Virus record (IMG/VR): IMGVR_UViG_3300000117_000159
Location: 1 to 29,369 of that record
DNA from: a virus
DNA: 29,369 nt
Direction: 5' to 3' (one strand)
This document shows, piece by piece, positions 456 to 23,482 of the stretch. The translations under genes were made by a program, and so were the position numbers. Below the pieces are notes generated by a model. It was not told the DNA's origin. It was given only the letters and a program-made list of their open reading frames with translations, and did no database searches. Every line of letters starts with the position of its first letter. Position 1 is the first letter of the stretch.

Positions 456-461
456 CTTAAA

Positions 462-1099
462 TTGGCAACAGTGCCAAAAAATACTAATCCTAGTCTGGCT
501 ACGTAAAAGTCAAACAACAGAAGTGTTGTGATTAGGTAGAGCCCTTGAATTATGTGTAATAAAGGGAAATCTGTAACTAACACTTAACGTCCATCGGTTA
601 AACGGTACAGGGAGGGTAATCAGTCCTCCTATTATATATACAAGTTTCAAAAACCCAAAGAAAGAGGTGAGAAACAAGTGTCGGTATATATTCTTATAAC
701 AAACGGCTATTAAACAAGAGTAAGTATCTCAAAGGAATATAAGAATAGTGGGTGGCAATCCTCTACCTTGAGTATTTACTCTTGTTATGTTTTAGCATTA
801 GTTTGGTAACACCTATAAATAATATTAGGTTGAGGTTCGATTCCTTGTTTTGCTACTAGGGGAGGCAGTGCTAACTGCGTAAATAAGGAAAAGGATATAA
901 GGTGAAACTTATAGACTATAAATGCAACTGAGTTGCTACCATTAGCCATACTGTTATGAACAGACATTAACAGCCTGAGATTTATTAAGAATAGACAGTC
1001 CCCAAGAAATGTTCTACTTAATATAAACTGTATTCTTACTTCAAATAAGACAATGCAGAGTTCTCTATAAATACGTAGGTTAAACGTATTTACTTTTTT
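462..1099 (+). ncRNA. Large structured RNA candidate (~640 nt) with two pseudoknots
   Basis: No convincing gene lies in this 667-base gap, but helices are dense. Hairpins: 462-467/472-477 (6 bp, tetraloop ACAG), 514-519/524-529 enclosed by 484-489/530-535, 542-546/562-566, 865-869/874-878, 896-901/908-913, 924-928/932-936 and 951-955/959-963. A branched domain is closed by 580-585/676-681 and contains 609-615/625-630 and 644-648/671-675. An arm of about 21 bp (713-735/766-786) carries loop bases 738-747, which pair perfectly over 10 bp with 689-698: a pseudoknot. An 11-bp helix 986-998/1028-1038 has loop bases 999-1003 that can pair with 859-863: a second pseudoknot. The element ends at an intrinsic terminator. 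It recalls large phage RNAs such as GOLLD or ROOL in size and style, but I cannot align it to either. The exact 5' end is unknown. Confidence 0.7.
1068..1099 (+). terminator. Intrinsic terminator of the structured RNA
   Basis: A 9-bp stem (1068-1076 with 1084-1092, TAAATACGT/ACGTATTTA) has a 7-base loop and is followed by C and six T. It sits between the structured RNA and the start of the gene at 1123, so it probably defines the RNA 3' end. Confidence 0.8.
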
Positions 1100-1122
1100 A
1101 TTCACTATTAAAACTAATTATT

Positions 1123-1747: not shown

Positions 1748-1900
1748 ATGGATTTTGAAGAAGCTCAATTTATGGCTGCTATGTATAACATCAGCCCAGA
1801 ATTAACATGTCAATGTGATGAAGTTCACATATGTCAACAATGTATGGAAGATGAATCAGACCAAGCTCAAGCTGATGATTTAATCTCTCCTTATGAATAA
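1748..1900 (+). CDS. Small acidic Cys-rich protein, possible zinc knuckle
   Basis: A 50-residue acidic product begins MDFEEAQFMAAMYNISPELT. Residues 21-32 read CQCDEVHICQQC. The C-x-C ... H-x-C-x-x-C spacing would suit a small zinc-binding knuckle. The remainder is rich in Asp/Glu/Gln and ends ISPYE. The leader ACTAACTATTTACTAAAACT is nearly that of the gene before it. Zinc binding is inferred from the spacing only; the fold is unknown. Confidence 0.6.
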   Translation: MDFEEAQFMAAMYNISPELTCQCDEVHICQQCMEDESDQAQADDLISPYE

Positions 1901-1921
1901 TATTAACTAAAAACTATAACT

Positions 1922-2041
1922 ATGTTTACATTAACTTCATTATTATTTAACAGTGACGCAAAAGAAAGTATGGAAGAGAAAGCAGGTATATTACTACTAA
2001 ATGTATTTTTAGATTCATGTATTATACTATCTTTTCTATAA
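1922..2041 (+). CDS. Tiny membrane-type protein, paralogue of next gene
   Basis: A 39-residue product has a short acidic stretch (AKESMEEK) and a C-terminal hydrophobic segment, ILLLNVFLDSCIILSFL. The next gene (2070-2180) has the same architecture, including a shared LDxCxI core, so the two look like a tandem duplication. A single C-terminal membrane helix is the likely topology. It is translated from the recurring leader AACTAAAAACTATAACT. Function unknown. Confidence 0.55.
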   Translation: MFTLTSLLFNSDAKESMEEKAGILLLNVFLDSCIILSFL

Positions 2042-3199: not shown

Positions 3200-3555
3200 G
3201 GGGGCGTTTTGGTTTTGACATGTGTAATGGATTAATAATATCAGCAGTCAGTGGTGACTTTAAACACTGTAGGTGAATTTCAATAATTGGAAATATATCA
3301 AAAAACAGCGCTGCATTTGCAGACAAAGTAGAAGCAATGGTCTTTAATATTGCACCAGTTGAGGAAGAGTTGCTTATGGCAGCATAAGAATCAACTAAAT
3401 GAGTTTCTTTATTCTCATACAAAATAAAGTGGTGGTAGCCCAACATTCATTGTTGGTCTCAGAGTTTGTTAGGCGCTCTTTAAATGCCTTACATAAGCTG
3501 TATAAATATTATTATGAAGAGCATATGGACCAGGGTTCGACTCCCTGCGCCTCCA
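3200..3555 (+). ncRNA. ssrA: Transfer-messenger RNA (tmRNA)
   Basis: tmRNA frees stalled ribosomes: it enters as alanyl-tRNA with SmpB, then templates a degradation tag. The 5' end GGGGGCG (3200-3206) pairs over all 7 bp with CGCCTCC (3548-3554); the third pair is G-U, the alanine identity element. It is followed by TTTTGGTTTTGACA, typical of tmRNA 5' ends. The T-arm CAGGG-TTCGACT-CCCTG (3531-3547) is perfect. After the tag stop, ATGAG/CTCAT (3399-3403/3414-3418) forms a stem whose loop CTTTATT (3407-3413) pairs with AATAAAG (3423-3429): a pseudoknot as expected. A hairpin follows at 3440-3444/3452-3456. Discriminator A3555 is followed by CTA, so CCA is not encoded. Length of about 356 nt is normal. 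No SmpB gene is seen here, so host SmpB is presumably used. Confidence 0.95.
3319..3387 (+). other. tmRNA tag reading frame
   Basis: The frame ending at TAA 3385-3387 encodes a tag that ends ...EEELLMAA. The terminal Ala-Ala after a hydrophobic pair is the usual protease-recognition end of tmRNA tags. The resume codon is not certain. GCA at 3319 would give 22 residues (begins ADKVEAMVFN); GCA at 3313 or GCT at 3310 would give 24 or 25. This is longer than the common 8-15 residue tags. Confidence 0.75.
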
Positions 3556-3578
3556 CTATTAACTAAATTAACTTAATT

Positions 3579-3707: not shown

Positions 3708-3847
3708 ATAATATATTAAGTGCCAATGATTGGCTTAAAAAAAATAAAAATAAGTATATAAATGGTAGTTCTGTTGCTATAGTTATGAAGCAGTATGCTA
3801 TTTATTATAATAATATGTTAAATGAACTCAATAAAAAAAATAACTAG
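3704..3847 (+). CDS. Small protein (47 aa) overlapping the radical-SAM gene
   Basis: ATGA overlap with the previous stop, and a 26-base overlap with the next gene. The product begins MNNILSANDWLKKNKNKYIN, continues with GSSVAIVMKQYAIYYNNMLN and ends KKNN. No motif recognised. Coupled translation from the previous to the radical-SAM gene is the likely arrangement. Confidence 0.5.
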   Translation: MNNILSANDWLKKNKNKYINGSSVAIVMKQYAIYYNNMLNELNKKNN

Positions 3848-4685
3848 AAAAAGTATGTTAATTAGAGAGTCTGGTAGAAGCTCTGATTATATTACTCCTA
3901 GTTTTGGATATGGATGTTTATTTAATTGTAGTTATTGTTATATGAAAAGACATTTATCTAAAGGATTAACTGTTGCTAAAAATGCAGGAGATATTTTAAC
4001 AGAAATTAATAATCATGTTTATTTTTATGCAGATGTAAAAAAACCTAATCAAACTCATAAAGAATATATTACTTATGATATATCTTGTAATGAAGATTTT
4101 GCTTTGCATTCTAAATATCATGACTGGAAATATATATTTAAATTCTTTAGAGATAATACAAAAGCTTTAGGTACTTTTGCAACTAAGACTATTCCTATAA
4201 ATTTTTTAGAGTTTAATCCAAAAAAGAAAATAAGAATAAGATTTAGTCTTATGCCTCAGAACATAGCTGATAAACTAGAACCAAACACTGCTAAAATTAT
4301 TAATAGAATAAAAGCTGTTGATGCTTTTATAGAAGCAGGATATGAGGTTCACTTAAACTTTTCACCTGTTGTTGTTTATGACGGTTGGTTAGAAGATTAT
4401 GAAATGTTATTTGAAATGTGTAATGATTATATAGAGAATAAAGAAGAAGTTTTATCTGAAGTTATATTTCTTACACATAATGAAAAGAAGCATAAAGATA
4501 ATTTAATCAATAATCTACCTGGTGAAGATTTATTATGGACACCAAAAACTCAAGAAACTAAAACATCTCAGTATGGAGGTGTAAATATAAGGTATAAACA
4601 TAATCTTAAAAAACAGTACATAAAAAAATGGACTAGTTTACATAATAAGATTATACCTTGGAATACAATTAGATATATATTTTAA
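3822..4685 (+). CDS. Radical SAM enzyme, spore photoproduct lyase-like
   Basis: The radical-SAM cluster site is C-x3-C-x2-C (Cys32, Cys36, Cys39, in YGCLFNCSYCYMKRHL), binding [4Fe-4S] and SAM. Three further stretches fit spore photoproduct lyase, which reverses the thymine dimer 5-thyminyl-5,6-dihydrothymine in spore DNA. They are YDISC (Cys89, placed like that enzyme's H-donor Cys), TFATKT (about 118-123), and HLNFSPVVVYDGWLEDYEML, typical of the C-terminal barrel of that family. At 287 aa it is shorter than Bacillus SplB (about 340). Phage genomes do carry SplB-like proteins, but nothing here suggests a spore-forming host, so the substrate may differ: another DNA photoproduct or a nucleic-acid modification. 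Family assignment is good; substrate unknown. Confidence 0.8.
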   Translation: MNSIKKITRKSMLIRESGRSSDYITPSFGYGCLFNCSYCYMKRHLSKGLTVAKNAGDILTEINNHVYFYADVKKPNQTHKEYITYDISCNEDFALHSKYHDWKYIFKFFRDNTKALGTFATKTIPINFLEFNPKKKIRIRFSLMPQNIADKLEPNTAKIINRIKAVDAFIEAGYEVHLNFSPVVVYDGWLEDYEMLFEMCNDYIENKEEVLSEVIFLTHNEKKHKDNLINNLPGEDLLWTPKTQETKTSQYGGVNIRYKHNLKKQYIKKWTSLHNKIIPWNTIRYIF

Positions 4686-5482: not shown

Positions 5483-5810
5483 ATTAATAATAATGGGATT
5501 AGCTATTCTAATGTATAGCTGTTCTGCAAGTAAAGATTTAGAAAATGGCATCTTTAATAATGGGTACTCATTAAATAAATTTAGCACTGTTAACTATGAT
5601 GTTGTTTTAAATGATGTAGTAATAGCACACGTTACATCTATAGAGTGGGAATACTTTAAGGGTGAGCTAGTTAGAGAAATATCAGTAACAACTAAAAATC
5701 ATATGTCAGATAATGATATTATAGACATGATAAAATTTCTACATTCAAAGTATCCTGACTTTAAGATAGAGGTCAACAATGATGGAACAGATAAGTTTTA
5801 TGAGCACTAA
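5472..5810 (+). CDS. Lipoprotein (112 aa), unknown
   Basis: The product begins MKNKLIIMGLAILMYSCSAS: a lipoprotein signal with lipobox MYSC, Cys17 the predicted lipid site. The mature part alternates hydrophobic and polar residues (VVLNDVVIAHVTSIEWEYFK) and ends with a helix plus strand (SDNDIIDMIKFLHSKYPDFK then IEVNNDGTDKFYEH), a small alpha/beta domain. A phage lipoprotein may act at the host envelope, for example against superinfection, but this is inference. Overlaps the gene before it. Confidence 0.65.
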   Translation: MKNKLIIMGLAILMYSCSASKDLENGIFNNGYSLNKFSTVNYDVVLNDVVIAHVTSIEWEYFKGELVREISVTTKNHMSDNDIIDMIKFLHSKYPDFKIEVNNDGTDKFYEH

Positions 5811-5822
5811 ACTAGAGCAAAG

Positions 5823-6032
5823 ATGATTAATAGTGGTAGAGAATGGGATTGGATGGATAAAGAAACAAAAATGGCTGAAAAAGACGTTATATACGCATTA
5901 GAGCTATTACATACAGTGCAAATAAAAAGAGAGTGTTTACAATTTGCTTCATTTGTAAATGAGAAGTTTAAAAACTTAACTAAACTAGAAAAAGATAAAC
6001 TTTGGTTAAAATATTTAAAAGAAGATGGTTGA
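5823..6032 (+). CDS. Small helical protein (69 aa), unknown
   Basis: The product begins MINSGREWDWMDKETKMAEK, continues with a long helix DVIYALELLHTVQIKRECLQ and ends KLEKDKLWLKYLKEDG. It is entirely charged and helical with no membrane segment. Its C-terminal end overlaps the next start by eight bases. The leader AGAGCAAAG is a degenerate form of the local initiation repeat. Function unknown. Confidence 0.6.
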   Translation: MINSGREWDWMDKETKMAEKDVIYALELLHTVQIKRECLQFASFVNEKFKNLTKLEKDKLWLKYLKEDG

Positions 6033-11300: not shown

Positions 11301-12119
11301 ATGATAGAAAATGTAACAATAGGCGCAGACCCTGAGTTCTTTTTAAGAGATAAAATAACAGGAGAGCCTGTTTCTTCTGAAGGGCTAATAGGAGGAACTA
11401 AAAGAAAACCAAAACCTATTAGTGACTTGGGGCATAATGTGCAAGAAGACAATGTAGCAGTAGAATTTGGATTTAAGCCTGTAGTAGATGCTCAAAGCTT
11501 TATTAGAGATATTAATACATGTATAGATTATGTAAAAGAAAATATTCCTAATAATCTTGAACCTTATATAGTAGCATCAACTACTTTTGATAGTAAGTAT
11601 TTACAAACTATGCAAGCAAGAGCATTTGGGTGTGAGCCTGATTTAGATGTATGGGCAAAACAACCTAATACAGCGCCTTTTGCAGGTACTAACTTAAGAG
11701 TAAGTGCTGGACATATACATATAGGTTATGAAAAACCTAGAATTCCTATAACAGAGAAACTTATTAAAATGATGGATTTGTTTTTAGGTGTTCCTAGCGT
11801 TCTTATGGACGAAGATAGGGACAGAAGAAAAATGTATGGTAAAGCAGGTGCTTTTAGAATTAAAAGTTATGGTTGTGAGTATAGAACTTTATCTAATTTT
11901 TGGATTACTTCTGATAAGCTTATTGAATGGGCTTTTAATAATACTCAATTAGCTATAACTAATGTTAATAATAAAAAAGAAATAAGCACAGAAGACGCTA
12001 AAGATATTCAAAAATGTATTAATGAATATGATGAAAAGTTAGCTAATAAATTAATTAATAAATTCAATATTCCGTATATAAAAACAAATATATATAAGAA
12101 AGTTAAAGTTGAAATATAG
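11301..12119 (+). CDS. COOH-NH2 ligase, phiEco32-type amidoligase
   Basis: Glutamine-synthetase-fold ligase of the phage phiEco32 COOH-NH2 ligase type; such enzymes are predicted to join a carboxylate to an amine using ATP. Motifs: GADPEF (Glu12), NVAVEFGF (Glu55), SAGHIHIG (His138, His140) and EYRTLSNFW (Glu193, Arg195). These are the metal/nucleotide-binding positions expected in glutamine-synthetase-like amidoligases. Length 272 aa is normal. It sits between a class I amidotransferase (which could supply ammonia or reverse the reaction) and a beta-rich protein. Substrates are not known for this family as far as I know; roles in cell-wall or peptide-tag modification have been proposed from gene neighbourhoods. 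Family confident, substrate unknown. Confidence 0.87.
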   Translation: MIENVTIGADPEFFLRDKITGEPVSSEGLIGGTKRKPKPISDLGHNVQEDNVAVEFGFKPVVDAQSFIRDINTCIDYVKENIPNNLEPYIVASTTFDSKYLQTMQARAFGCEPDLDVWAKQPNTAPFAGTNLRVSAGHIHIGYEKPRIPITEKLIKMMDLFLGVPSVLMDEDRDRRKMYGKAGAFRIKSYGCEYRTLSNFWITSDKLIEWAFNNTQLAITNVNNKKEISTEDAKDIQKCINEYDEKLANKLINKFNIPYIKTNIYKKVKVEI

Positions 12120-12132
12120 TAATAAAAAAGAT

Positions 12133-12984
12133 ATGAGAGGAAATCAGAATTTTAATTTTACTTTAGGACAAAAAGTAAAGTGTGATAATCTTCATGGCTA
12201 TGAAGGAGAAGTATTAAAGAAAAATAGAATTTACACGGTTAGTTTTATAGGCGTTAATGTTATTGGTTTAGAAGAGCATTTAAAAGAAGATGATTCTCCT
12301 GTTAAATTTTTTAAGCATTATTTTCAAGAAGTTCAAGAAAACGTAAAAAGAATCTTTCGTACAGGAGACTCAGTAAGATATAGTGGTTGTAATTGGACTG
12401 TTATAGAACAGTTAGGAGTTAATCTTTTTTTATCTTATAATGGAGGAGGAGCAGATGACGTTTGTATAAATATATTAACTGATGATTATATAGTAACTAA
12501 ACAAAAAATTAGAAACAAAGATAAAGTAACATTAGTACCTTTAAGTAGTATTCAAAGGTTTTTAGAGGATGATAGATATTATTTAAATGAATCATCTATG
12601 GATAAAACGGATTTAGAAGGTATTTATATGGATTTAGAAAATACAGACAGTTATACTGTTAGTAAAGCATGTGAAAGAAGAAGAACAGTAATTTTAAAAG
12701 GATATAAAGACATTAACATTCCATTTGAGTTACTTATACCTTTAAAGGAACATTCAAAATATAATCCAATAGTGGTAGGAAGTAAAGTAGTTTATAAAAA
12801 AGGAAAATTTGCAGTTATAAACAAAGAGTACATAGTTAAAGACATTGTAAAACTATCATCTAAAACACTTTTAGGTTTAGAAGTAAGTAATGGTGTTATA
12901 TATGTCAATGAAAAACAATGTAAAAATACAAAAAATAAAGATGAAAAAAAAGTGGTTAAAAAGGAGCTTAAGGATATTCTCTAG
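12133..12984 (+). CDS. Beta-rich repeat protein (SH3-like repeats), unknown
   Basis: Start 12133 (MRGNQNFNFTLG) is chosen over a TTG at 12109. The protein has at least three stretches of the same rhythm: GQKVKCDNLHGYEGEVLKKN then RIYTVSFIGVNVIGLEEH, RTGDSVRYSGCNWTVIEQLG, and VGSKVVYKKGKFAVINKEY then IVKDIVKLSSKTLLGLEV. Each looks like an SH3/KOW-type barrel beginning G-x-x-V-x-Y/C. The tail is very Lys-rich (NTKNKDEKKVVKKELKDIL). It lies between two ligases in the amide operon, which suggests a substrate-presenting or scaffold role, perhaps binding the modified polymer or protein. No catalytic motif. Its end overlaps the ATP-grasp gene by 44 bases. Confidence 0.7.
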   Translation: MRGNQNFNFTLGQKVKCDNLHGYEGEVLKKNRIYTVSFIGVNVIGLEEHLKEDDSPVKFFKHYFQEVQENVKRIFRTGDSVRYSGCNWTVIEQLGVNLFLSYNGGGADDVCINILTDDYIVTKQKIRNKDKVTLVPLSSIQRFLEDDRYYLNESSMDKTDLEGIYMDLENTDSYTVSKACERRRTVILKGYKDINIPFELLIPLKEHSKYNPIVVGSKVVYKKGKFAVINKEYIVKDIVKLSSKTLLGLEVSNGVIYVNEKQCKNTKNKDEKKVVKKELKDIL

Positions 12985-13744
12985 ACATCCTTCTCATGAT
13001 GGAATAAGAGGTAAAATATTTGTACCTGCTAATTTATTAGCCTGTGTAAGATTTGGTAGTCAAACTATATGGAATAAAAGTGAAAAATTTCTTAATTCTC
13101 CTGAAGCTGTTAGTAATAGTTCTAATAAAGAAAAAATGAAAAAATGTTTTACAGATAAAGAAGTTAAAACAGCTCTTTGGTGGAATACTATGCAGTCTTT
13201 AATAGAAGAAGAAGAAATTCCTTTTCCTATTATAGCTAAGAAAAAATACGGCTCTAGAGGGCAAGGTATGGTTAAACTAGACAATCAAAATCAACTAGAT
13301 GTGTTTACTGTAAATAATAACTTTGAAAATTACATTTATGAAAAGTTTTATAACTATTCTCGTGAATATCGTTTACACGTTAGCTCTGAAGGTTGTTTTT
13401 ATACTTGTAGAAAAATGCTAAAAAGTGATATTCCTAAGAATCAAAGATGGTTTAGAAATGATTCTAATTCTGTATGGTATATAGAAACAAATGAAAACTT
13501 TGATAAGCCTTCTAATTGGGATGACATTGTTCAAGAGTGTGTAAAAGCAATGAAAGCTGTAGGGCTTGATTTTGGGGCTTGTGATGTTAAAGTACAAAGC
13601 GCTACTAATAAAGAAGGAGTTAAAAGAGAATATCCTAAGTTTATTATAATAGAAATCAATAGTGCTCCTTCTTTTGGTGAAGGAACTTTAGAAGCGTATA
13701 TTAAAAACTTACCTTTAATGTTAAAAAATAAATATGAAAAGTAA
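12941..13744 (+). CDS. ATP-grasp ligase (RimK-like)
   Basis: ATP-grasp enzymes make an acyl-phosphate from ATP and a carboxylate, then join an amine. Start 12941 follows AAAATAAAG, the local initiation style, and leaves an overlap with the previous gene. Motifs: FPIIAKKKYGSRGQGM (Lys101 and Gly-loop 104-109), YEKFYNYSREYRLHV (Glu134, Arg144), LDFGACDVKV (Asp215) and IIEINSAPSF (Glu238, Asn240, the Mg-binding pair). This is a complete ATP-grasp active site, closest in style to RimK or peptide ligases. It starts inside the SH3-like gene and ends 11 bases into the next. A good partner for amide-bond formation in this cluster; acceptor unknown. Confidence 0.88.
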   Translation: MKKKWLKRSLRIFSRHPSHDGIRGKIFVPANLLACVRFGSQTIWNKSEKFLNSPEAVSNSSNKEKMKKCFTDKEVKTALWWNTMQSLIEEEEIPFPIIAKKKYGSRGQGMVKLDNQNQLDVFTVNNNFENYIYEKFYNYSREYRLHVSSEGCFYTCRKMLKSDIPKNQRWFRNDSNSVWYIETNENFDKPSNWDDIVQECVKAMKAVGLDFGACDVKVQSATNKEGVKREYPKFIIIEINSAPSFGEGTLEAYIKNLPLMLKNKYEK

Positions 13745-14192
13745 AAAAAAGATAAGAGAAAGTAATATAAAAAAAATAAAAGAATTAATTAGTGCTTATT
13801 TTTGTAAAACAGGTCTAGAGAGTTTCAAATTACCGATATTAGACACGCCAAATGGCTTAAAAAGTATAGAATCTGCAGAAGAAGATGAGGATAATCCTTA
13901 TTATGATGATTCTTATTATACAGGAGTTACTTTGACTTATATTATGAAGTATATTATAAAGTATAAATATAAAAAAGATTTAGTTATATATAGTTTATTT
14001 GATATGTTAGATAATGAGGAAATAAAATCATTACATTGTCCTACTATAGGGAAAGTAGTATTTGAAAACAATAATACAGATCATTGGACATATAGAGTTT
14101 TAAAAACCCCTAAAAGAGACCATTTTGCAAATATAGCAGAAGCATTACCTAAAGAGTTTTGTACTTATATAGGTATAAAAAAATTATTATGA
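13734..14192 (+). CDS. Unknown protein in the amidoligase operon (152 aa)
   Basis: The product begins MKSKKKIRESNIKKIKELIS, a basic helix, followed by a region with an acidic Tyr-rich patch (ESAEEDEDNPYYDDSYYTGV) and a more regular alpha/beta C-terminal half (LVIYSLFDMLDNEEIKSLHC). No catalytic motif recognised. Overlaps at both ends (ATP-grasp gene by 11 bases, cyclotransferase gene by four) show it is a true part of this operon. A substrate carrying many Asp/Glu/Tyr residues would fit, but that is speculation. Confidence 0.65.
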   Translation: MKSKKKIRESNIKKIKELISAYFCKTGLESFKLPILDTPNGLKSIESAEEDEDNPYYDDSYYTGVTLTYIMKYIIKYKYKKDLVIYSLFDMLDNEEIKSLHCPTIGKVVFENNNTDHWTYRVLKTPKRDHFANIAEALPKEFCTYIGIKKLL

Positions 14193-14548
14193 AAAAATTA
14201 TGTGCTGTATATGGCAGTTTAAAAAAAGGTTATAGTAACCATGACATGTTTTTAGGAAAAGCTAAGTATGTAGGTAAAACTATAACAGGACCTAGATATA
14301 CTATGTATAGTTTAGGAGGTTTTCCAGGAGTAGTTGAAAATGGTGATACATCTATTCATTTAGAGGTATACGAAGTAACAGAAAAAGAAGATAAAAATAT
14401 AGAAAGTTTAGAAGGATATCGTAAAGATTCTCCTGAATATTCTTTTTATCTTAAAAAACAAATAAATACAGAATTTGGTAAAGCAAGTATTTATATTTTT
14501 AACAAAAAATCAGATGAATTACCTATAGTAGAAACAGGTAATTGGTAA
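14189..14548 (+). CDS. Gamma-glutamylcyclotransferase-like protein (AIG2/GGCT fold)
   Basis: This fold removes gamma-glutamyl groups from an amine as pyroglutamate (5-oxoproline). Start 14189 is chosen because it gives MKKLCAVYGSLKKGYSNHDM. The signature is VYGSLKKG (substrate-binding loop) near the start and ESLEGYR, whose Glu75 is the expected catalytic acid (the Glu before GYR). YSLGGFPGVV also fits the family's YxLGxyPg motif. At 119 aa it is a compact, AIG2-like version. ATGA-type overlap with the previous stop. In an operon with ligases and amidotransferases, it probably removes or rearranges a gamma-glutamyl intermediate. Confidence 0.85.
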   Translation: MKKLCAVYGSLKKGYSNHDMFLGKAKYVGKTITGPRYTMYSLGGFPGVVENGDTSIHLEVYEVTEKEDKNIESLEGYRKDSPEYSFYLKKQINTEFGKASIYIFNKKSDELPIVETGNW

Positions 14549-14571
14549 TTAGTAAAAAAACAAACAAACAA

Positions 14572-15840
14572 ATGATAAATTTTATTATAACATTATTATT
14601 ATTGCAATTTATTAACGCTTTAATAACAAAAAAACGTTCTGTAACTTTAGGATGTGGATTATTAGGTTACTCAGGAGAGTATGCAGCAGATAAAGATAAA
14701 CTTGCTATTTTATTTCTGTATAACCAAACAAGAGGAGAAGACTCTTGTGGTTATTATAATCATGACATTGCTATTGCTGCAGAGCATAGAATAGAGAAAA
14801 AAAGTGGTAAAGTGTCTTTAAATTTATTGCCAGATGAAATAAAAGACCCTACTAATTTATTTATAGGACATACAAGAGCAGCAACTAGTGGTACTGGACG
14901 TACTTCTGCATATAATGCTCATCCTTTTCTTTTTGGAAAGTGGGTAGGTGCTCATAATGGTACTTTAACTAATCTTAAAGGACTAATAAGAGAGTATGAT
15001 ATGGATGAAAAAACTATTGATATAGATAGTAAAATATTTCCAGCGTCTATACACCAAGAAAATAATTTTAAGATACTTAATAATTATGACGGTGCAGCTG
15101 CTTTAATATGGGCTAACACTGATATTAGTAAAAAAAGTCCTTTGTATGTGTATCACGATAAAGAAAGACCTTTATTTTCTGGTATTATTAAAAAAGGCTC
15201 TAAAATAGGTAGGTATATTTCTTCTATTAAAGAGTCTTTAAAAGCTATTGGTTGTACAAACATAGAGTCTTTTGAAGTAGATACTTTATACAGTATTAAA
15301 GATGGAGCTATAAAAGAAACAATGGCAATAAGTAGAAATAATCCTATTAAAAACAATTTAAAAAGAATTCCTGAAAGCATACAATTAGCTTGTAGAGAAA
15401 GTAAATCTATATTTACCCAACAAGGTAAAACAACTAATGTCTTTGATGACGGCACTGTAATAGTAACTGTTGATAGTTATTATGGTATTAAAAAGTGTAT
15501 TAGAGAAGAAGTAGTATATGACCCTAAAAGAGAAATAACTGTACATGTTCGTTATATGAGTGACGGAGGCTTTGAAGAAGTTTTAGTAAGTAACTATCGA
15601 GATAAAACAGATATTGTAACTAAAGACTCGGAAGAAGAAAATACAATAGCACTAGAAGATGTTATGGACTACATGGCTGAGTTATATTATAAATTAGATG
15701 AAGCTAGAGCTACTTTAAGTATAGCCCTTGACAATAAGGATATTAAAGAAGAAGACGTAGAAAGTCTAGATGACGTTATGCTTAATGTAACTAAATTTAT
15801 AGGTTCTTTAGCAGAAATAGGAGAAACAGCAGAAATATAA
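14572..15840 (+). CDS. Class II (Ntn) glutamine amidotransferase with hydrophobic leader
   Basis: N-terminal-nucleophile amidotransferases need their Cys as the first residue. Here the Cys is residue 28 (GCGLLGYSGEY), preceded by a leader beginning MINFIITLLLLQFINALITK, then KRSVTLG. The rest of the active site is intact: Arg102 in GHTRAATSG, AYNAHPF, and Asn129-Gly130 in GAHNGTL, with D/S acid residues in DIDSKIF. Start 14572 (ATG after AAACAAACAAACAA) is preferred to a TTG at 14542. Either the leader is cut to free Cys28, as in propeptide-bearing PurF-type enzymes, or the true start is non-standard; no Met lies just before the Cys. The C-terminal 250 residues end in a strongly acidic, helical tail, possibly partner-binding. 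Glutamine-hydrolysing, ammonia-delivering role likely. Confidence 0.85.
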   Translation: MINFIITLLLLQFINALITKKRSVTLGCGLLGYSGEYAADKDKLAILFLYNQTRGEDSCGYYNHDIAIAAEHRIEKKSGKVSLNLLPDEIKDPTNLFIGHTRAATSGTGRTSAYNAHPFLFGKWVGAHNGTLTNLKGLIREYDMDEKTIDIDSKIFPASIHQENNFKILNNYDGAAALIWANTDISKKSPLYVYHDKERPLFSGIIKKGSKIGRYISSIKESLKAIGCTNIESFEVDTLYSIKDGAIKETMAISRNNPIKNNLKRIPESIQLACRESKSIFTQQGKTTNVFDDGTVIVTVDSYYGIKKCIREEVVYDPKREITVHVRYMSDGGFEEVLVSNYRDKTDIVTKDSEEENTIALEDVMDYMAELYYKLDEARATLSIALDNKDIKEEDVESLDDVMLNVTKFIGSLAEIGETAEI

Positions 15841-15847
15841 TAAAAAT

Positions 15848-17287
15848 ATGGAAGATAAAATTAAAAAATTACTTAAAATAGAACCTAATAACGGAACTGT
15901 TTATACTGAAGATAATAGTTTTTGTGAGTCTGGCTCTATTTGTGGTGGTATTGTTTACAAAAAAAACAATAAATGGGATGTAAAGTATTTTTATAAGAGT
16001 AATAATTTGTATAATTTTTTACTTACTATTGATAACTTGCTTTTAAATTTTTATATAAAACATTTTGAATGGTCAGTAGTTTTACCTTACATAGCCCGTA
16101 AAGATTTTGGAATGCCTCTTTATTTTATAGATAAAGAAGCTATTGAGTTTTTTAATTTAAAAAAATATCCTAATTATTATTTAGTAAAAAAGCCTGCCCA
16201 AAAGAGTGTAAATCTTAAGCTTAAAAAAGGTAATAATAATTTAGGATTTGAATTTACTAATAGCAATATTGAAGCTTATAATCCTCTTACTAAAAGACAA
16301 AAGTTAAAATTTAAACAACAATTAGGAACAGACTCTAAAACTTATATAGCTACAGAAGGACTTAAGTATTCTTTTGGAGTAGAGTTAGAAACTTGTTCAG
16401 GATATGTATCTTTATCAGATTATTTTATTAATAAAGTTAATATACGTTCTGTAAGAGATGGGTCTGTAAGTGGTTGTGAATATGTTACAGGAGTTCTTAA
16501 GGGAGATGCTGGTTTTAATCAATTATATAATATTTCAAATCTTCTTAATAAGCAAAACAAAGTAGATAGAACTTGTGGTATGCATGTGCATATAGGAGGA
16601 GCTAATTTTAATAAATCTTTTTCTGTTTATGCTCACATATTAAGTGAAAAAATACAGGATTCTATGTTTTCTATAGTTTCTAAAACTAGAAGAAACAATT
16701 CTTATTGTGGAGATGTAATACCTCTTGGATTAGAGTCTATTATTAAGAAATATGGAATTAGTTATGGAGTTGAGGTTGCTTATGAAACTTTGTTTAAAGA
16801 AATGACTTACGGAAGTTTGCCATCTAGTACTTATAATAGAAAAATTAGTAATCATCATTATGGTAGATATTGTGGCAAGTATAACGGTATAGAAGATGAA
16901 GATAATTTTAGATATAAATGGGTAAATTTAATTCCTTGTAATTTTAATGTTAGAAACTATGCTCATCCAGCTCATGGTTACGATAATGAGGCAAATACTA
17001 TAGAGTTTAGATTTCATTCTGGTACATTAAATTATGTTAAAATTAAAAACTTTACTCTTATATGTATGGCTTTTGTAAATTATGTAGAAAATAATAAAAC
17101 AGACATATTAAATAAAGAAGTAATTACTTTGGAAGATATAATAGAGAGTACTTATAGAAAAAATGTAAAACCTTTGTTATCTTATGTTGATATGAGACAA
17201 AAGTTATTTAATAATGACCCTGAATTATTAGAATCTAGTGATAAACAAAAAATCTTTAAAACTAAAAAAGAAAGAATATGTGTATAA
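15848..17287 (+). CDS. Amidoligase (COOH-NH2 ligase, Amidoligase_2 type)
   Basis: Second glutamine-synthetase-fold ligase of the operon, from a different subfamily than the one at 11301. The catalytic part starts at about 170. FGVELE (176-181) with Glu179/181, RSVRDGSVSGCEYVT (Asp204, Glu211), CGMHVHIG (His246, His248) and NTIEFRFHSGT (386-390) are the signature positions. About 170 residues before the domain are not typical and contain no recognised motif (beta-like, aromatic), possibly a substrate-binding domain. Starts seven bases after the previous stop and overlaps the next gene by ten bases. It should make an amide between a carboxylate and an amine; the two different ligases in one operon suggest a branched or two-step product. 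Confidence 0.87.
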   Translation: MEDKIKKLLKIEPNNGTVYTEDNSFCESGSICGGIVYKKNNKWDVKYFYKSNNLYNFLLTIDNLLLNFYIKHFEWSVVLPYIARKDFGMPLYFIDKEAIEFFNLKKYPNYYLVKKPAQKSVNLKLKKGNNNLGFEFTNSNIEAYNPLTKRQKLKFKQQLGTDSKTYIATEGLKYSFGVELETCSGYVSLSDYFINKVNIRSVRDGSVSGCEYVTGVLKGDAGFNQLYNISNLLNKQNKVDRTCGMHVHIGGANFNKSFSVYAHILSEKIQDSMFSIVSKTRRNNSYCGDVIPLGLESIIKKYGISYGVEVAYETLFKEMTYGSLPSSTYNRKISNHHYGRYCGKYNGIEDEDNFRYKWVNLIPCNFNVRNYAHPAHGYDNEANTIEFRFHSGTLNYVKIKNFTLICMAFVNYVENNKTDILNKEVITLEDIIESTYRKNVKPLLSYVDMRQKLFNNDPELLESSDKQKIFKTKKERICV

Positions 17288-23085: not shown

Positions 23086-23482
23086 AATACTTTTAGTATT
23101 TTTACTTGTAGTATTAGTACTTGGCGTAAGTCATAGTCAAGAATGTAATATAAGTAATATTAAAAAAGAACTGATAAAACAAAAAGTTAAACATCCAAAT
23201 ATAGTAATGAAACAAATTATTTTAGAAACAGGTTGGTTAAAATGCACTAATTGTTCTCTTGATAGTAATAATATATTTGGATTTTGGTATAAAAAAGCAT
23301 ATAAAAAATTTGATACCTGGCAAGAAGGTGTGTTATATTATAAAACATGGCAAGAGAAGTGGTATATTACAGGAGATTATTATGCTTTTTTAGAGTGTAT
23401 ATATAAAGGAAGTAAAGGGGACTGTAAAAGATACGCTTCTGACCCTATGTATGTTTACAAACTAAAAAAAATACATATATGA
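23057..23482 (+). CDS. Membrane-anchored glucosaminidase-domain lytic protein
   Basis: It starts inside the nuclease gene. Residues 7-27 (YWFEILLVFLLVVLVLGVSH) are a membrane/signal segment. The rest follows a glucosaminidase (PF01832) pattern, KHPNIVMKQIILETGWLKC with Glu57 the likely catalytic acid, and NNIFGFWYKKAYKKFDTWQE then GVLYYKTWQEK. At 141 aa it is short for an amidase or muramidase but enough for a one-domain lytic enzyme with a signal-arrest-release-type N terminus. It may be the endolysin or an entry/cell-wall enzyme. No holin is recognised next to it. Confidence 0.75.
   Translation: MKKIKKYWFEILLVFLLVVLVLGVSHSQECNISNIKKELIKQKVKHPNIVMKQIILETGWLKCTNCSLDSNNIFGFWYKKAYKKFDTWQEGVLYYKTWQEKWYITGDYYAFLECIYKGSKGDCKRYASDPMYVYKLKKIHI

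Follow-up and report, generated by a model that had tools for sequence, protein, structure and literature searches.

Near the start of a 29,369-base virus record, the whole of which was analysed here and is called the window, a gap separates two short ORFs. A preliminary description, made from this sequence, proposed that it encodes a single non-coding RNA of ~640 nt (462-1099) of an undescribed family, carrying two pseudoknots and its own terminator. The locus thus raises the question whether such an RNA is encoded and how far it extends.

A gap without genes and the relatives of its 5' part

The genes of the window lie on the plus strand, and no plus-strand ORF in the gap (456-1122) exceeds 35 aa, which bears out the statement that no good gene occupies it. 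The G+C content of 462-1099 is 34.5% compared to 28.3% window-wide, placing it at the 97.6th percentile among windows of the same length. Folded as a single sequence, 462-1099 has a minimum free energy (MFE) of -156 kcal/mol (z -2.86, with 1 of 100 shuffles as good). Such folding was rejected as proof, since an equal or lower z is seen elsewhere on the contig: 5 of 20 other 638-nt windows (15 shuffles each) have a lower value. Folding energy alone could not decide the matter.

Homologues were sought with both DNA and protein queries. With the window RNA as query, blastn and nhmmer on the loci, whole-record DNA searches of 6 and of 34 records (the latter representing 53 loci) and a DNA search of the phage collection returned no homologue. 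Contigs L002 and L003, whose DNA polymerases share 85-87% protein identity with that of the window, stop short of the gap region. The upstream 57-aa protein led to one contig, L149 (genome G041), which holds a clear copy of 481-789, and a minus-strand frame spanning 481-789 led to L150 (G042), L151 (G043) and again L149 (as L152). Neither the protein encoded at 1123-1515 nor the 106-aa minus-strand frame at 785-1105 found a relative. The three copies of 481-789, hereafter the core (module A), are 87.3, 86.3 and 83.0% identical to the window, and the alignment of all four sequences (A3) has 315 columns with a mean column identity of 90% (Table 1).

Table 1. Positions of the features in the window and in the related contigs
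Feature	Position	Strand	Basis or remark
Gap	456-1122		Between 57-aa ORF (282-455) and 131-aa ORF (1123-1518)
Short hairpin TTGGCA/TGCCAA	462-477	+	16 nt, at the place of the relatives' larger 5' domain
Conserved structured RNA core (module A)	481-789	+	Homologues in three phage contigs; R1 scores
Core homologue	L149 3951-4252	+	Located via upstream 57-aa protein
Core homologue	L150 2873-3176	-	Located via minus-strand frame query
Core homologue	L151 2878-3183	-	Located via minus-strand frame query
Three-way junction	Stem 489-495/530-536; hairpins 496-500/508-512 and 514-519/524-529	+	Centroids of all four
Hairpin	542-546/562-566	+	Two double compensatory changes
Branched domain	580-681, closed by 580-585/676-681; hairpins 593-606, 610-630, 644-675	+	Kept in four of four
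Candidate pseudoknot, ATATATAC with GTATATAT	634-641 with 684-691	+	8 bp, invariant in four of four
Long arm	713-728/770-786; inner helices 732-735/766-769 and 746-752/759-765	+	z score, compensation
Window-only segment	790-1099	+	Without homologue or folding signal
tRNA-like stretch	794-857	+	T-arm and part of acceptor stem; below curated thresholds
AT-rich 9-bp hairpin, then CTTTTTTA (six T)	1068-1099 (hairpin 1068-1092)	+	Candidate weak terminator
Second conserved non-coding module	L150 2627-2872 (-), L151 2640-2877 (-), L149 4733-4885 (+)
One-piece tmRNA	3200-3558	+	ARAGORN; Rfam RF00023, 96.3 bits
Circularly permuted tmRNA	L150 92-332 (oriented G042 5561-5924)	-	RF04321, 57.3 bits; ARAGORN tmRNA*

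The covariance model R1 scored 331-362 bits on all four known members, which were also its sole strong hits in 50 records. At E <= 1, 14 of the 50 records matched, these four included. One of the four weaker hits whose alignments were viewed overlaps coding sequence on the opposite strand, and R1 even hit the antisense strand of the L151 homologue with E 2.4e-4, so that comparable E values carry little meaning. The core had no match among 50,697 phage records, nor in 395 genomes of a single phylum, that of a Flavobacterium MAG, in a search run without a positive control. At the gathering threshold of Rfam 15 the sole match of the whole window was the tmRNA, and as both ARAGORN and Rfam put tmRNA at 3200-3558 alone, a tmRNA identity of 462-1099 was rejected. 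Eight weak matches were returned for 400-1150 up to E 10, none of them GOLLD, ROOL or another large RNA family; RF00028 is absent from these matches, which disposes of a group I intron. The Infernal comparison that the preliminary description had proposed thus leaves 481-789 outside every Rfam 15 family, and we found no paper naming this RNA among those under open licence.

The core stands out by its conservation. In blastn comparisons, from which blocks of 60 or fewer columns were excluded, the window shares two blocks with G042, namely the core (84.0%, 312 columns) and 122 nt in a small gene, and three with G043, namely the core (81.8%), 2170-2357 and 23231-23355. The core is the longest block in both comparisons, and beyond it and short pieces of genes almost nothing can be aligned between the window and these two genomes. 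Between G042 and G043, the core and the module that follows it are 92% identical over 586 nt, compared to 66-85% for the 13 remaining blocks listed. G041 shares several blocks with the window at 84-94% (the core at 86.8%), and because it is a close relative, the L149 copy contributes less.

Consensus fold of the core

The RNAalifold consensus of the four sequences comprises 81 pairs at -66.5 kcal/mol, a value reached by none of 100 column shuffles (mean -37.7 +/- 4.3, minimum -51.5 kcal/mol). Across the four sequences, 98.4% of 322 pair cells are paired, and just 36-48% are when the partners are slid by 1-3 columns. Four pairs have changed on both sides yet still pair, a number matched by 3 of 500 shuffles, and the covariation score of the fold is likewise equalled by 3 of 500; these values are to be read for four sequences with most helices invariant and for a structure derived from the same alignment. 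The fold computed from the window alone has 89.8% of 256 cells paired and one double change, which 141 of 500 shuffles reach, and it is worse partly where the arm of the window differs. When each sequence is folded by itself, the three-way junction, the long arm and the hairpins 610-630 and 644-675 recur in every one of the four centroids.

The clearest compensations are those of two hairpins. At 542-566 the stem reads CCCTT/AAGGG in the window and CCTCT/AGAGG in the three relatives, and at 644-675 a double change has replaced both sides of the stem in L151. The three-way junction is mostly invariant, with G-U/G-C and A-U/G-U exchanges. The branched domain previously proposed from the sequence is retained in all four phages, and its closing helix is invariant, so that covariation is uninformative there. 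The long arm also proved sound: the region 704-790 folds beyond chance (MFE -28.6, z -5.1, 0 of 200 shuffles), and the arm is kept in the four phages with compensation, namely one double change, several one-sided changes that keep the pair, and G-U/G-C exchanges.

The two pseudoknots of the preliminary description fared less well. The 10-bp pairing of 689-698 with 738-747 does exist in the window, where 7 of 400 shuffles reach it, but it is not kept in the homologues: the five bases behind it are an insertion of the window, and TATTC/GAATA is what remains in the other three phages. The pseudoknot is unsupported because these bases are missing there. The second, 859-863 with 999-1003, is at chance level, as 399 of 1000 shuffles pair at least 5 bp between those stretches. 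Another crossing pairing, 634-641 with 684-691, is a possible pseudoknot; it competes with a pairing of 481-485 with 683-687, and since it is invariant in the four sequences, covariation says nothing on it.

Two readings that dispense with an RNA bear on these data. The gap might be coding or hold a decaying gene, as the window has open minus-strand frames of 106 aa and of 55 aa (510-677). The former is the frame without relatives mentioned above, and changes in the latter are spread evenly over the three codon positions (5, 5, 7; 5, 8, 6; 9, 11, 10). None of the frames stays open at length in every one of the four phages, and decay of 481-789 is ruled out by a conservation above that of most of the genome; for the core this reading is scarcely credible and we regard it as refuted. 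It is also quite improbable that the core functions as DNA, for example as an origin of replication or a site for packaging, and is rich in inverted repeats by coincidence. It is intergenic and conserved, and a replication module lies nearby, but changes that keep pairs through G-U make sense in RNA alone. Moreover, the plus strand of 481-789 has z scores of -2.7 to -3.5 in all four phages and surpasses the minus strand, judged against its own shuffles, in each of them.

Taken together, the helices of 481-789 do carry compensatory changes among the homologous phage sequences. Neither of the findings that the preliminary description had named as counting against an RNA, helices lacking compensation and conserved coding potential, was encountered in this interval. 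Compensation with no coding signal, the general mark of a structured non-coding RNA, is therefore present in the core, in four sequences, and we conclude that 481-789 very probably gives a genuine functional RNA.

The 3' half and the variable side parts

The gap is two different things, a conserved RNA in its 5' part and an unsupported segment in its 3' part. Homology and folding signal both end at ~789, which speaks against one RNA of ~640 nt. The proposal of a structured RNA from an undescribed family holds for 481-789, with its compensation, no shared frame and no Rfam match, but not for 790-1099. It was homology rather than single-sequence folding that told the two halves apart. The 3' segment folds with a z of -0.87 (38 of 200 shuffles as good); comparison with the downstream regions of the relatives gave no blast or alignment signal, 188, 230 and 282 of 300 shuffles aligning equally well. 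This part may contain a decayed gene.

The stretch 794-857 is probably a degenerate tRNA-like sequence. The mascRNA model (RF01684) scored 24.5 bits on 794-854, against a gathering threshold of 42.5 (E 0.016), with two mismatched acceptor pairs, and a tRNA or mascRNA-like element was rejected on this score. The MFE of 794-857 is no better than that of shuffles, and ARAGORN gave no hit there at default settings; permissive settings produced many false genes and were left unused. Any likeness to mascRNA is limited to 794-854, outside the conserved core. As to the intrinsic terminator proposed at the end of the gap, the AT-rich hairpin followed by CTTTTTTA is present. With few G-C pairs in its stem, missing from the output of the terminator scan and absent from the homologues, it is a possible weak terminator.

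A motif seemingly common to contig L006 and positions 906-962 was striking by eye and unproven: the score of the local alignment was reached by 5 of 500 shuffles; two other scorings gave 48 and 460 of 500, and with the latter the best alignment lay elsewhere. A pattern scan for 906-962 found L006 alone among the viral contigs, as well as ten matches in genome contigs that looked like chance, and R1 gave no hit on L006. That contig has a long ORF-free stretch at 1102-2145; a degenerate tRNA scoring 40.5 bits lies within it at ~2068-2139.

The surroundings of the core differ between the phages. In L149, L150 and L151 it is preceded by a 5' domain whose ends (TACTCTCATCCAA and TTGTGAGAGTA) are conserved and whose middle varies. 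Two copies of this domain, both with these ends, occur in L151 (oriented G043 68-190 and 334-437), one of them free-standing ahead of a small ORF. A second conserved non-coding module of ~240 nt directly follows the core in L150 and L151. Its first 155 nt are found in L149 480 nt further on, past a small ORF and other non-coding sequence; it is nearly invariant across 150 nt in the three phages and had no match in the phage collection. We envisage a folded core joined to variable side domains, which would be the 5' domain and the 3' module in the relatives, and in the window the 16-nt hairpin plus 310 nt of unrelated sequence. Because the core of the relatives bears other side parts, the full transcript may reach the length first guessed, with different pieces.

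Neighbouring RNA genes and the possible role of the core

The RNA would be transcribed along with the plus-strand genes. It could be a cis-acting leader or intergenic element controlling its neighbours, similar to a riboswitch or an attenuator, or a processing site of the operon, since it sits between co-directional genes and, in the window and L149, has an ORF (1123 and 4281, respectively) close to its 3' edge. Against this, the gene immediately downstream is different in all four phages, the conserved ~240-nt module comes first in L150 and L151, and no Rfam cis-regulatory family matches, which makes control in cis improbable. The differing downstream gene is the one ground for favouring action in trans over a leader, the molecule presumably working as RNA. 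Judging from the comparison of the four phages, 481-789 is likely to be a conserved, trans-acting structured non-coding RNA of a family outside Rfam 15.

In three of the four phages a tmRNA gene lies downstream of the core and on the same strand, at 2.4 kb in the window and 2.8 kb in G041 (both one-piece) and at 2.5 kb in G042 (permuted); none was found on the 29.4-kb record of G043. Its form thus switches between relatives; permuted tmRNAs of phages had been described previously (PMC9004378). Neither tmRNA model (RF00023; permuted RF04321) matches the core, and no tag frame is common to the four sequences. ARAGORN found no tRNA gene in the window, G041, G042 or G043, and degenerate tRNA-like elements recur across these genomes. 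From this neighbourhood, namely the tmRNA 2.4-2.8 kb downstream and the recurring tRNA-like elements, we suggest tentatively and with low confidence that the RNA helps the phage to manage translation during infection. That it might be a new modular RNA machine, with a slowly evolving core and swappable modules, acting on host ribosomes or translation factors in the course of infection, is a doubtful proposition.

We place the core as a new family among the large structured phage RNAs. In PMC12286853, GOLLD and ROOL are described as such RNAs of unknown function that often lie near tRNA genes or islands and form homo-oligomeric RNA cages, GOLLD having one conserved and one less conserved part. 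The core resembles them, as there described, in being a large structured phage RNA of unknown function. It differs in having no Rfam match to either, in a conserved part of ~305 nt and in a tmRNA as neighbour, with no tRNA gene found, where the two in that text are often by tRNA islands. PMC7567579 reports that a long ORF-free stretch of phage ICP1 yields an abundant transcript of ~800 nt; by that description, the gap is similar in being long, ORF-free phage DNA. GOLLD, ROOL and similar RNAs are among the least understood, and an additional family near tmRNA genes offers a compact ~305-nt object for structure work and lets one ask whether phages manage translation through such RNAs.

Several further observations were made. 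A tRNA-like sequence, GCCATTA...TAGTGGCAC, is common to L151 (~1850-1940, minus strand), L150 (~1524-1676) and L017 (~824-921), in the last of which ARAGORN did not call it. L036 (6280-6404; Rfam tRNA 41.4 bits) and L061 (8687-8827) have tRNA-like genes whose ends match (AGTCAGG...CCTGACT) and whose middle is unusually long. Among the matches listed for the window in the phage collection, the top one is a Leptolyngbya phage (39%), and crAss-like phages are included at ~28-34% identity. The window also encodes a spore-photoproduct-lyase-like radical SAM protein at 3822-4685 (Pfam SPL, 88.6 bits), for which viral contigs yielded 53 relatives and the phage collection 0, and clustered genes at 11301-17287 for COOH-NH2 ligase, glutamine-amidotransferase-like and amidoligase-like proteins.
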